This document shows, piece by piece, positions 37,701 to 49,060 of a stretch of 59,781 nucleotides of DNA; position 1 is the stretch's first letter, and every line of letters starts with the position of its first letter. Under the pieces are notes generated by a model, which was not told the DNA's origin, did not search any database, and saw only the letters and a list, made by a program, of their open reading frames with translations. Origin of the DNA: an uncultured Oscillospiraceae bacterium (GTDB taxonomy: Bacteria > Bacillota > Clostridia > Oscillospirales > Oscillospiraceae). A program made the translations under genes and the position numbers. Location: the NCBI GenBank assembly GCA_934667815.1, contig CAKUMO010000015.1:1-59781 (forward strand), written 5' to 3'.

Positions 37701-38645
37701 ATGAGTAAAATTACCGTCATCGGCGCGGGAAGCGTCGGCGCTACCATTGCCAACGACCTGATGATTCAGGGTACGGCAACAGAGATCCTTCTCATTGACA
37801 TCAACCGTGAAAAAGCCTTCGGCGAGGCGCTTGACATCTATCAGGGCGCGCCTTTCTGCTCTCCTGCCATCGTCCACTCCGGCGAATACGAGGACGCCGT
37901 GGACTCCGACATTGTTATTATCACCTCCGGTCTTCCGCGCAAGGCCGGGCAGTCTCGTCTGGAGCTGGCGCAGGCCAATGTGGAAATTCTGCGCGAGATC
38001 ACGCCGCAGATCGTCAAGGCCGCGCCGAACGCGATCTATATCATCGTCTCGAATCCCGTGGATGTCCTGACCTATGTCTTTACGAAAATTTCCGGCCTGC
38101 CTGAACGCCAGATTCTCGGCTCCGGTACGATTCTTGATACCAGCCGTCTGCAATCCGAGCTGGCACGCCGCTTCCACATCAGCCCGAAGAACGTACACGC
38201 GCACGTCTACGGTGAGCACGGTGATTCTTCCTTTGTGCCGTGGTCTCTGGTGCACATTGCCAACAACCACATTGATTCCTACGCCGCCAATTCGCCCGAC
38301 CATGATAAGATCGTCTGGAATCGCGAATATCAGGAGGTCGAGGAGTTTGTCAAGCGCTCCGGTGCGCAGGTCATCAAGTCCAAGGGCGCAACGTTCTACG
38401 CCGTGGCCATGTCCGTATGTCACCTGTGCAAGTGCCTGAAGAACAGCGCCGGCACTGCCGTGACCGTCTCTACCCTGATGCACGGCGAATACGGTGTTTC
38501 GGACGTGTGCCTATCCACGCTCTGCCTTGTTGATCGCGACGGCGTGCGCGGCAAGATTCTCAATCACCTGACCGACAGTGAGGTCGATCAGCTCCGCATG
38601 AGTGCAGACAAACTCAAGGATGTCCTGCGACAGATCAAATTCTGA
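37701..38645 (+). CDS. mdh: Malate dehydrogenase (LDH-like family, Arg in the specificity position)
   Basis: 314 residues from the ATG preceded by AAGGAG. NAD-binding GAGSVGATIANDL, the active-site His in YGEHGDSSFVPWS, and the substrate-loop SGLPRKAGQSRLEL. In this loop lactate dehydrogenases carry Gln at the discriminating position (102 in classical numbering), while malate dehydrogenases carry Arg; here the residue is Arg (the R of LPRK), with Arg109 also present. Family tools may call it L-lactate dehydrogenase, but the residue and the fumarase gene ten bases downstream favour malate/oxaloacetate. First gene of the operon. Confidence 0.8.
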   Translation: MSKITVIGAGSVGATIANDLMIQGTATEILLIDINREKAFGEALDIYQGAPFCSPAIVHSGEYEDAVDSDIVIITSGLPRKAGQSRLELAQANVEILREITPQIVKAAPNAIYIIVSNPVDVLTYVFTKISGLPERQILGSGTILDTSRLQSELARRFHISPKNVHAHVYGEHGDSSFVPWSLVHIANNHIDSYAANSPDHDKIVWNREYQEVEEFVKRSGAQVIKSKGATFYAVAMSVCHLCKCLKNSAGTAVTVSTLMHGEYGVSDVCLSTLCLVDRDGVRGKILNHLTDSEVDQLRMSADKLKDVLRQIKF

Positions 38646-38655
38646 GGTGAACGCG

Positions 38656-40032
38656 ATGGAATACCGCATTGAACACGACTCCATGGGTGAGGTTCGTGTC
38701 CCCGCAGACAAATACTGGGGTGCACAGACCGAGCGCAGCCACGAGAATTTTCCCATCGGCGTTGGGCTGGAAACCATGCCGCGTGAAATCACGCGTGCCT
38801 TCGGTGTTCTGAAAAAGGCCGCCGCCCGTGCAAACCATGCGCTGAAGCCGGAGAAAATGACCGCCGAGAAGCTCGCCGTCATTGAAGCGGCCTGCGACGA
38901 AGTCATCTCCGGCAAGCTTTATGAGCACTTCCCTCTCGTCGTCTGGCAAACCGGATCCGGCACGCAGTCGAACATGAACGCCAATGAGGTCATCGCCAAC
39001 CGCGCAAACGAGCTGGCAGGCAGGAAGCTCCTGCATCCGAACGACGACATCAACATGTCCCAGTCGTCCAACGACACCTTCCCCACCGCCATGCACATCG
39101 CGGCAGTCGAAGCGTTGGAGGCAAACGTTCTTCCCGCGATTGACCGTCTGATTGCGACCTTTGAACGTCTGGAGCAGGAGAACGACGACGTCGTCAAGTC
39201 CGGCCGGACGCATTTGCAGGATGCAACCCCCATCAAGTTCAGTCAGGAGATTTCCGGCTGGCGCAGCAGCCTGCAAAAAGACCGCAGGCTCATCGAGCTG
39301 GCCTTGCCCGAGCTGAAGGCTCTGGCGCTGGGCGGCACGGCCGTCGGCACCGGTCTGAACGCACCCAAGGGCTTTGATGTCCGCGTGGCGCAGGAGGTCT
39401 CCGCGCTCACGGGCAGAGAATTCCGCACGGCAGAGAATAAATTCCACGCGCTGACCTCAAAAGACGAGCTGGTTTTCGCGCATGGCGCGCTGAAGGCACT
39501 GGCTGCCGATCTCATGAAGATCGCCAACGACGTACGCTGGCTGGCCTCCGGCCCGCGCTGCGGTCTCGGGGAAATCTTTATACCCGAGAACGAACCGGGT
39601 TCGTCCATCATGCCCGGCAAGGTCAACCCTACACAGTGCGAGGCGTTGACCATGGTCGCCGTGCAGGTCATGGGCAATGACGCCGCCGTTGGGATTGCCG
39701 CCTCTCAGGGCAATTTCGAGCTGAACGTGTTCATGCCCGTCTGCATCTACAATTTCCTGCAATCGGCACGTCTGCTCACCGAGGCCATGGACAGCTTTAA
39801 CACACGTTGTGCCTCCGGCATCCGCGCGAACCGTGAGAAGATGCACCGCAACCTACATGATTCGCTCATGCTTGTCACGGCGCTCAATCCATACATCGGC
39901 TATGAAAATGCGGCTAAAACCGCAAAGCTTGCTTATAAAGAAAATATCTCGCTCAAAGAAGCCTGTGTCCGTCTCGGCTTCCTGAGCGCTGAAAAATTCG
40001 ACGAGGTGTTCCATCCGGAACAGATGGTCTGA
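38656..40032 (+). CDS. fumC: Class II fumarate hydratase
   Basis: 458 residues, full length for oxygen-stable class II fumarase. Signatures: GSGTQSNMNANEVIANRA, NDDINMSQSSNDTFPTAM, and the superfamily loop GSSIMPGKVNPTQCE with its flexible catalytic serine. Interconverts malate and fumarate. Ten bases behind mdh with GAGGTGAACG as ribosome site, and 13 bases before hdrB, so the dicarboxylate steps and the redox complex are expressed together. Confidence 0.96.
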   Translation: MEYRIEHDSMGEVRVPADKYWGAQTERSHENFPIGVGLETMPREITRAFGVLKKAAARANHALKPEKMTAEKLAVIEAACDEVISGKLYEHFPLVVWQTGSGTQSNMNANEVIANRANELAGRKLLHPNDDINMSQSSNDTFPTAMHIAAVEALEANVLPAIDRLIATFERLEQENDDVVKSGRTHLQDATPIKFSQEISGWRSSLQKDRRLIELALPELKALALGGTAVGTGLNAPKGFDVRVAQEVSALTGREFRTAENKFHALTSKDELVFAHGALKALAADLMKIANDVRWLASGPRCGLGEIFIPENEPGSSIMPGKVNPTQCEALTMVAVQVMGNDAAVGIAASQGNFELNVFMPVCIYNFLQSARLLTEAMDSFNTRCASGIRANREKMHRNLHDSLMLVTALNPYIGYENAAKTAKLAYKENISLKEACVRLGFLSAEKFDEVFHPEQMV

Positions 40033-48743: not shown

Positions 48744-48754
48744 GGAGTTATTTT

Positions 48755-49060
48755 ATGAATTGGGCAAGTCTCTTTGAAACCCTGATGATCGTCTGCTTCG
48801 GTCTGTCGTGGCCGCTTTCCATTGTGCGCACGCTGCGCACCAAGTCCACCAAGGGCAAAAGCCCGTTCTTCATGGCTTTCATCGCCTTCGGCTATGTCTG
48901 CGGCATCGTCGCCAAGCTCATGACGCACACCTACAATCTGGCTTTCTGGTTCTATTTCCCGAACGTCCTGATGGTGAGCACAGAGATGGTTCTCTACTTC
49001 CACTATCGCCACGTCGAGCACATCTGCCCAAACTGCCAGACGGTCGTAAAGACAAAGTAA
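48755..49060 (+). CDS. Small PQ-loop/SemiSWEET-like membrane protein
   Basis: 101 residues with three membrane segments. SWPLSIVRTLRTKSTKGKS resembles the PQ-loop of SemiSWEET-type half-transporters, followed by FFMAFIAFGYVCGIVAKLM and FWFYFPNVLMVSTEMVLYFH; the tail has CPNCQTVV. Starts 12 bases after the flavoprotein gene with AAGGAG. Last gene of the operon. It might move a small metabolite across the membrane, or anchor the soluble complex; nothing in the sequence decides. Confidence 0.7.
   Translation: MNWASLFETLMIVCFGLSWPLSIVRTLRTKSTKGKSPFFMAFIAFGYVCGIVAKLMTHTYNLAFWFYFPNVLMVSTEMVLYFHYRHVEHICPNCQTVVKTK

Follow-up and report, generated by a model that had tools for sequence, protein, structure and literature searches.

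A twelve-gene operon of an uncultured Oscillospiraceae bacterium encodes a candidate NADH-driven, electron-bifurcating soluble fumarate reductase

The operon analyzed here lies on the + strand at positions 37701-49060 of a 59,781-nucleotide stretch of DNA from an uncultured Oscillospiraceae bacterium (contig CAKUMO010000015.1, assembly GCA_934667815.1), referred to as a whole as the window. It comprises twelve tightly packed, co-directional open reading frames (Table 1), namely, a malate dehydrogenase (MDH)-type gene (mdh) and fumC, followed by hdrB, hdrC, hdrA, flxD, two Flx iron-sulfur genes, flxA, frdB-like and frdA-like genes, and a gene for a small predicted membrane protein. The largest gap is 13 bases (mdh-fumC, +10; fumC-hdrB, +13; hdrB-hdrC, overlap of 4; hdrC-hdrA, +12; hdrA-flxD, overlap of 10; flxD-next gene, overlap of 13; the following two junctions, overlaps of 4 each; flxA-frdB, +10; frdB-frdA, +11; frdA-last gene, +11), and no gene for an FrdC/D or SdhC/D membrane anchor was recognized in this interval. 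A first-pass annotation made from the letters alone had described the same layout of small gaps and overlaps, which proved real; its gene names agreed with the family searches, the MDH name being kept on account of a specificity arginine and the two Flx iron-sulfur genes being FlxB and FlxC, while its PQ-loop call for the last gene remained weak. We consider it highly likely that the operon product is an NAD(P)H-dependent fumarate reductase. The best-supported reading, to which we assign a probability of roughly 0.68, is a reductase that would be driven by NADH and would bifurcate electrons between fumarate and ferredoxin.

Table 1. Genes of the operon and the features immediately upstream of it
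Feature	Position	Strand	Evidence
LDH/MDH-family dehydrogenase, probably malate dehydrogenase (Arg80 = lactate dehydrogenase [LDH] position 102)	37701..38645	+	
fumC, class II fumarate hydratase	38656..40032	+	TIGR00979 719.6 bits, cut-off 664.75
hdrB, two complete CCG motifs, two noncubane clusters predicted	40046..40837	+	PF02754
hdrC, two [4Fe-4S] motifs	40834..41214	+	Family search
hdrA, FAD/iron-sulfur bifurcation subunit	41227..43218	+	NF040770, 5odc_A alignment
flxD (MvhD/FlpD family)	43209..43643	+	PF02662 185.6 bits
First Flx iron-sulfur subunit (FlxC or FlxB)	43631..44605	+	Fer4_8 38 bits
Second Flx iron-sulfur subunit (FlxB or FlxC), sulfhydrogenase beta-like	44602..45624	+	PF17179 105.5 bits; NF040829 161.9 bits, below cut-off 690
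flxA, FAD/NAD(P)H reductase subunit	45621..46448	+	PF00175, PF10418, PF00970
frdB-like, [2Fe-2S] and two predicted [4Fe-4S]	46459..47133	+	Alignment with E. coli FrdB
frdA-like flavoprotein, FAD predicted noncovalent	47145..48743	+	PF00890 259.6 bits, residues 92-472
Small predicted membrane protein, weak PQ-loop match	48755..49060	+	PF04193 16.5 bits, below 22-bit cut-off
LysR-type regulator, possible operon regulator, adjoining upstream, outside the twelve	36661..37587	+	PF00126 62.1 bits, PF03466 30.1 bits
Sigma-70-like promoter match TTTCCA-18-TATAAT, 46 bases 5' of first gene	37625..37654	+	Consensus scan only

Family searches revealed that all seven FlxABCD-HdrABC subunits are encoded in the operon, and as the pair of Flx-type iron-sulfur genes supplies FlxB and FlxC, as expected, FlxABCD-HdrABC is complete. 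In residue counts, from which rows with <90% coverage or an X were left out, the ten cysteines of both HdrB CCG motifs and the eight cysteines of HdrC were invariant in 83/83 distinct relatives each. Residues 3 to 661 of HdrA aligned with 5odc_A (E value of 8e-200), with near full-length homology also to 8rvu_a and 7bkb_A, these matches being HdrA subunits from structures of H2:CoB-CoM heterodisulfide,ferredoxin reductases. Its 16 ferredoxin-type cysteines (residues 243-306 and 587-639) and K414, the lysine beside the flavin and counterpart of K409, were kept in 85/85 aligned sequences, while certain other cysteines varied; the protein scored under the NCBIfam HdrA cut-offs (NF040770, 789 versus 1100 bits). 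In methanogen HdrB, the CCG motifs cleave heterodisulfide. The best NCBIfam model for the HdrB of the window was SdhE of methylmenaquinol:fumarate reductase (158 bits, under the cut-off of 500), an HdrB relative that serves SdhB in that enzyme. Moreover, three genomes (L168, L170, and L175, with frdA off the contig in L170) had hdrC-hdrB-frdB on stretches where neither hdrA nor flx was visible. Considering this arrangement and the role of SdhE, direct contact between HdrB and FrdB is plausible.

In an alignment with FrdA and NadB proteins, E. coli FrdA residues H233, T245, R288, H356, and R391 (Met1 counted) corresponded to H319, T335, R360, H432, and R466 of the window's FrdA, and these residues, together with E336, were invariant in 140/140 distinct relatives. 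The FAD (flavin adenine dinucleotide)-linking histidine is replaced by Asn128, likewise in 140/140, and the classical mark of covalent FAD is thus absent. In addition, FrdA has an 88-residue N-terminal extension ahead of the FAD domain and ends 60 residues past PF00890, with no match to the C-terminal succinate dehydrogenase (SDH) domain PF02910 at an E value of 0.01. FrdB matched E. coli FrdB at each of the 11 iron-sulfur ligand positions, two of which were each lost in one relative, and an additional cysteine, Cys151, occupied the position of E. coli FrdB Val208 (Met1 counted) in 123/123 distinct relatives. Replacement of Val208 by Cys in E. coli FrdB turns the [3Fe-4S] cluster into a [4Fe-4S] cluster, and because of Cys151 the third FrdB cluster is predicted to be [4Fe-4S] in place of [3Fe-4S]. 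An AlphaFold model of FrdB was too poor for use (mean predicted local distance difference test score, 55.4; predicted template modeling score, 0.38). Asn128, the catalytic residues, and Cys151 also held in 65/65 rows of a wider set, including 15 checked rows without linked hdrA/flx; since they are present in unlinked rows too, they represent family traits rather than marks of bifurcation.

The conservation of the operon was examined in two ways. A scan with FrdA, with one genome per species, yielded 248 relatives, and among the best 80 of these 248, frdB was present at 80/80 loci, with all nine hdr-flx-frd genes in the window order at 55/55 loci having ≥7.6 kb upstream of frdA. Because this set was picked by similarity, a class sample was then taken with FrdB as the query, consisting of 391 genomes from the class of L004, an Oscillospiraceae isolate (presumably Clostridia). 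An FrdB-like protein with 52-92% identity was detected in 54/391 genomes, and the case is therefore not marginal. Among these carriers, flxA was on the same stretch in 54/54 and immediately 5' of frdB in 53; in L137, frdA was off the contig. Thirty-three carrier stretches were fetched wide, and 30 were first viewed with 1.5 kb on each side; the window order was kept in 26/27 long-enough wide stretches, the exception being L115, with frdBA ahead of hdrBCA-flx. These order counts exclude loci having <7.6 kb on the 5' side of frdA (25/80 and 6/33). A permuted operon, in which frdBA precedes hdrBCA-flxDCBA, was observed in L162, L164, L165, and L166 as well as in L115. An operon with an FrdA 84% identical to that of the window occurred in L006, a record labelled Bacteroidaceae and perhaps a mis-binned contig. 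Many relatives are metagenome assemblies, and how complete the sampled genomes are is not stated.

The gene neighborhood also bears on the substrate. At the 62 loci that were wide on both sides, the fumarase was fumC in 44 and class I in 12, with both types in 0 and neither in 6. As the class II enzyme is replaced in distant operons by the unrelated class I fumarase around the same core, fumarate is hard to avoid as the substrate. Wide stretches with neither fumarase type detected include L118, L119, L016, L121, and L130. With regard to electron carriers, MqnA was found in 0/54 class carriers and MenD over its cut-off in 0/54, with nine weaker matches, and five of six relative genomes had no other FrdA/NadB-type protein at 1e-20; the comparative evidence favors a quinone-free setting. 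RnfC over its cut-off was detected in 27/54 carriers and FeFe hydrogenase in 45/54, and thus an outlet for reduced ferredoxin exists in most carriers. Rnf is not enriched: among the first 19 listed non-carriers (G011, 0.9 Mb, left out), RnfC occurred in 16/19 and FeFe hydrogenase in 17/19. Since RnfC over the cut-off was missing from half of the carriers, energy gain via Rnf is not general, and Rnf was rejected as a general ferredoxin sink.

In the proposed mechanism, the operon would catalyze the final steps of a fermentative succinate pathway, with MDH forming malate, FumC forming fumarate, and a soluble HdrABC-FlxABCD-FrdAB complex reducing fumarate with NADH. FlxA would accept hydride from NADH, and electrons would pass via FlxB/C and FlxD and reach HdrA, whose FAD is the putative branch point, and from there one electron would enter each arm. 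The high-potential arm would lead through HdrC, HdrB, the FrdB clusters, and the FrdA FAD to fumarate, and the low-potential arm from HdrA to ferredoxin (Fd), giving the sum 2 NADH + fumarate + Fd(ox) -> 2 NAD+ + succinate + Fd(red). We infer a single complex, this electron path, the use of NADH rather than NADPH, the direction, and the coupling to ferredoxin, the last from homology only. Ferredoxin potentials lie at -420 to -500 mV, and across this range the computed standard free energy change (dG0') of the bifurcating sum was -48.8 to -33.4 kJ/mol, compared with -68.1 kJ/mol for NADH -> fumarate. The remaining potentials in this calculation were those given in PMC5861303.

Several points weigh against the proposed mechanism. 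FrdB scored far under the SDH/fumarate reductase (FRD) iron-sulfur model TIGR00384 (29.6 versus 88 bits), and RnfC, as described above, was found in a smaller share of carriers than of non-carriers. The quinone genes and other fumarate reductases were examined in relatives, for whose genomes completeness is not stated. The literature searched yielded no ferredoxin reduction measured with any FrdBA complex of this kind, and the analogous purified Moorella MetFV-HdrABC-MvhD complex gave no ferredoxin reduction according to PMC8578096; therefore, ferredoxin coupling cannot be assumed. Furthermore, 17/36 stretches from outside the class sample (described below) had no hdrA/flx in view, some of them cut by contig ends, and because the same pair occurs in this way, FrdBA probably does not need bifurcation. 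The mechanism suggested in the first-pass annotation nevertheless stands as the best reading, with fumarate as the substrate and the quinone-free setting favored by comparison, and with ferredoxin coupling predicted by homology. The gene order whose conservation the annotation had proposed as a check was recovered in both samples, and consistent separation of the frd and hdr/flx genes, which it had named as a reason to abandon the proposal, was not seen in the class carriers, although linkage is not universal elsewhere.

Among the rivals, which are partly compatible with one another, the most serious is a non-bifurcating NADH:fumarate reductase, which we regard as unlikely. In such an enzyme, Flx-Hdr would just wire NADH to FrdAB, with both electrons passing to fumarate and the free energy lost or spent on rate. 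Fumarate is a strong enough acceptor, as the value for NADH -> fumarate indicates, and both the Moorella result and the half of carriers without RnfC over the cut-off are in line with this explanation; however, the ferredoxin-type cysteines and K414 of HdrA are kept in every aligned relative though certain other cysteines vary, and the retention of seven Hdr-Flx genes, when FrdBA elsewhere has far simpler neighbors, needs explaining. Considerably less probable are two enzymes in one operon that share a thiol/disulfide carrier, with Hdr reducing a disulfide and FrdAB using the dithiol like thiol:fumarate reductase. TfrB oxidizes thiols in its CCG domain, but no such domain (PF02754) was found in the 224-residue FrdB-like protein, and among the operon proteins scanned HdrB alone had a CCG match; the completeness of both HdrB motifs in 83/83 relatives does suit a carrier. 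TfrA (NF004900) was also the best NCBIfam model for FrdA, yet its score of 348.1 bits fell short of the 718-bit cut-off, and hdrC and hdrB stand directly 5' of frdB in the three other genomes with no hdrA/flx in view.

Reverse operation, either as succinate oxidation or as NADH formation by confurcation from succinate and reduced ferredoxin, has a very slim chance: related frdBA genes beside sucC (L167) or 2-oxoacid:ferredoxin oxidoreductase (L172) could work in both directions, but the potentials favor fumarate reduction, and the FAD-linking histidine, whose absence from E. coli FRD spares fumarate reduction and abolishes succinate oxidation, is Asn in 140/140. Just as improbable is action of the FrdA-like subunit on another enoate or on L-aspartate, for although the FrdA superfamily has members with many substrates and FrdA residues ~199-216 resemble NadB in the alignment, the position of NadB E121, a NadB-specific functional residue, is His199 in 140/140 and His (60), Phe (3), or Ser (2) but never Glu in the 65 rows of the wider set, the NadB model gave 278 bits against a cut-off of 452.75, and the core is accompanied by two unrelated fumarase types and, at single loci, by pyruvate carboxylase, malic enzyme, sucC, or a DASS transporter.

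To place FrdBA in a wider frame, two further samples were analyzed: a phylum sample of 299 genomes, of which 30 had FrdB including the center G001 and the other 29 stretches were fetched, and a sample of 149 genomes from the phylum of the Treponema-labelled genome L070, of which 8 had FrdB and 7 were fetched. These 36 stretches outside the class sample comprised 9 with hdrA and flxA, 8 with hdrA and flxD without flxA, 2 with flxA only, 3 with hdrB without hdrA or flx, and 14 with none of these in view, several ending at contig edges. In L172-L174, L178-L180, and L182, hdrCBA, flxD, and a flxC-like match were located 5' of frdBA without flxA (hdrC/hdrB not seen in L179), and L172, the one locus among these whose neighbors were read, also encoded a 1058-residue HdrA-like flavoprotein. 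Other neighbors seen at single loci were 2-oxoacid:ferredoxin oxidoreductase (L172), malic enzyme (L163), sucC (L167), and pyruvate carboxylase (L184). Directly 3' of frdA, L187 encodes a Cys-rich protein in which a Fer4 domain is joined to a membrane domain resembling cytochrome b561; this protein could anchor FrdBA in the membrane. Cys-rich proteins, judged by eye, are located in the same place in L186 and L189. Membrane genes and a short Cys-rich protein precede frdBA in L183 and L167, the 5' genes of L183 including a NapC/c7-type cytochrome and an FMN (flavin mononucleotide)-binding Fer4 protein. FlpD was present somewhere in the genome in 16 of 19 cases in a set picked for missing or partial hdr or flx beside frdBA.

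Quinone genes were detected in 7/36 of these genomes, all within the 17 without HdrA/Flx linkage (genome counts outside the class sample, linked 0/19 versus unlinked 7/17; Fisher P = 0.002), and adding the 33 wide class loci gave 0/52 versus 7/17. A quick tree with long branches flagged, for which 65 of 69 fetched rows were long enough, indicated that the linked state changed at least 6 times (66 rows) and that 2-3 independent pairs, each pointing the same way, underlie the link to quinone genes (sign test P = 0.25-0.5). Thus, the association between input module and quinone genes is suggestive and serves as a lead only. Related operons also occurred in L154-L157 and L070, in the phylum of the Treponema-labelled metagenome-assembled genome, and the placement of L154-L157 among class-sample rows in the tree suggests horizontal transfer of these operons. 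Taken together, there is about an even chance that FrdBA represents a distinct, portable fumarate reductase core, with an N-extended FrdA without C-terminal domain and a three-cluster FrdB predicted to have no [3Fe-4S], whose input module was swapped in evolution. In fermenters that have no quinone, this module would be NADH/ferredoxin-bifurcating Hdr-Flx; further versions would be Hdr lacking FlxA (at one locus beside 2-oxoacid:ferredoxin oxidoreductase) and HdrCB alone, Fer4-cytochrome b561, or a NapC-type anchor in genomes mostly with menaquinone genes, with the bifurcating form as the main quinone-free succinate route in gut Clostridia.

The first and last genes of the operon required separate consideration. 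The first gene passed the NCBI L-lactate dehydrogenase equivalog cut-off (314.1 versus 303.55 bits) and reached no NCBIfam malate dehydrogenase cut-off. Position 102 separates the two enzymes, with Gln102 in LDH and Arg102 in MDH, and the residue in the window's protein is Arg80, conserved as Arg in 61/61 relatives; LDH, favored by the NCBIfam score, was therefore rejected, and MDH is the better name. At the 97 loci with ≥1.2 kb 3' of frdA, the next gene encoded an AspT-family membrane protein in 44 and a PQ-loop-like protein in 24; seven loci had class I fumarase there, one had DASS, and the other 21 had none of these. PF06826 was confirmed in the three AspT-family neighbors tested. An AspT-family protein is a succinate exporter in Corynebacterium. 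Given that AspT and PQ-loop-like genes occupy the same slot and were never together in one locus in this listing, the small PQ-loop-like protein may stand in for an exporter. A distant operon, L116, has an extra DASS-type transporter and a Cache-domain sensor kinase. Elsewhere in the window, ethanolamine utilization genes occur on the + strand at 6318-16561, including an Fe-type alcohol dehydrogenase (6318-7382), EutB (8786-10147, 733 bits), and EutH (15467-16561, 477 bits).

Cross-feeding in the gut has succinate as one of its central products. Should the preferred bifurcating reading hold, quinone-free Clostridia would gain reduced ferredoxin per succinate, the ATP and hydrogen yields in metabolic models would change, and the operon would provide a soluble counterpart of membrane fumarate respiration. 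What the present analysis adds is breadth, linkage in a sample not picked for linkage, fumarase replacement, a residue signature, and exchangeable input modules.

Compared with E. coli FrdABCD, the catalytic residues and the 11 iron-sulfur cysteine ligands align, whereas the window has no anchor gene, no covalent-FAD histidine, no C-terminal domain, an extra Cys151, and an N-terminal extension. Thiol:fumarate reductase TfrAB, which is soluble, similarly combines FrdA-like and FrdB-like parts with an HdrB-type part, but the latter is fused in TfrB and is a separate HdrB subunit in the window, and the TfrA cut-off is missed, as is the SdhE cut-off in the comparison with 8-methylmenaquinol:fumarate reductase SdhABE. 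The FlxABCD-HdrABC of Desulfovibrio vulgaris, reportedly described by Ramos in 2015, has the same seven subunits in one operon, presumably without FrdBA. For Desulfovibrio alaskensis G20, a 2014 work by Meyer reportedly deals with endogenous fumarate reduction together with Hdr-Flox in electron flow during the fermentation of pyruvate. The acceptor differs as well, the postulated high-potential acceptor in D. vulgaris being the DsrC disulfide (PMC5296606), versus fumarate as proposed here. In 2019, tfrAB and korABCD interspersed with flxABCD-hdrABC were reported from the reductive tricarboxylic acid (rTCA) clusters of tubeworm symbionts (sulfur bacteria) and Thioflavicoccus, and a complex was proposed (PMC6315080). 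Judged by the description there, those clusters likewise mix fumarate reductase genes with flx-hdr, but in an autotrophic rTCA context with kor and with the pair named TfrAB.

The closest counterpart is the "succinate operon" of the related thermophile Pseudoclostridium thermosuccinogenes, in which one fumarase, seven Flx-Hdr, two fumarate reductase genes, and one hypothetical gene have consecutive locus tags (CDQ83_RS03315-03365); it was proposed in 2020 to be NADH-ferredoxin-fumarate bifurcating, with citation of a 2019 preprint (10.20944/preprints201912.0288.v1), and was ~4-fold up on CO2 limitation, which was not significant for all subunits (PMC7282089). No homologue named P. thermosuccinogenes was among the matches listed (120 of 7209 proteins). 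CRISPRi is established in this species (PMC9044749). The literature searched, in which preprints were not covered and subscription papers were few, yielded no enzymology of such a complex and no description in gut Clostridia in the accessible texts; the novelty that the first-pass annotation had claimed does not extend beyond that group, the general idea having been published (PMC7282089 and PMC6315080). The operon of the window is a further case of an already proposed, still hypothetical kind of enzyme. By gene content, as compared through the printed locus-tag ranges, it shares its gene set and the bifurcation proposal with the P. thermosuccinogenes operon, from which it differs in starting with an MDH-type gene and ending with a PQ-loop-like one.

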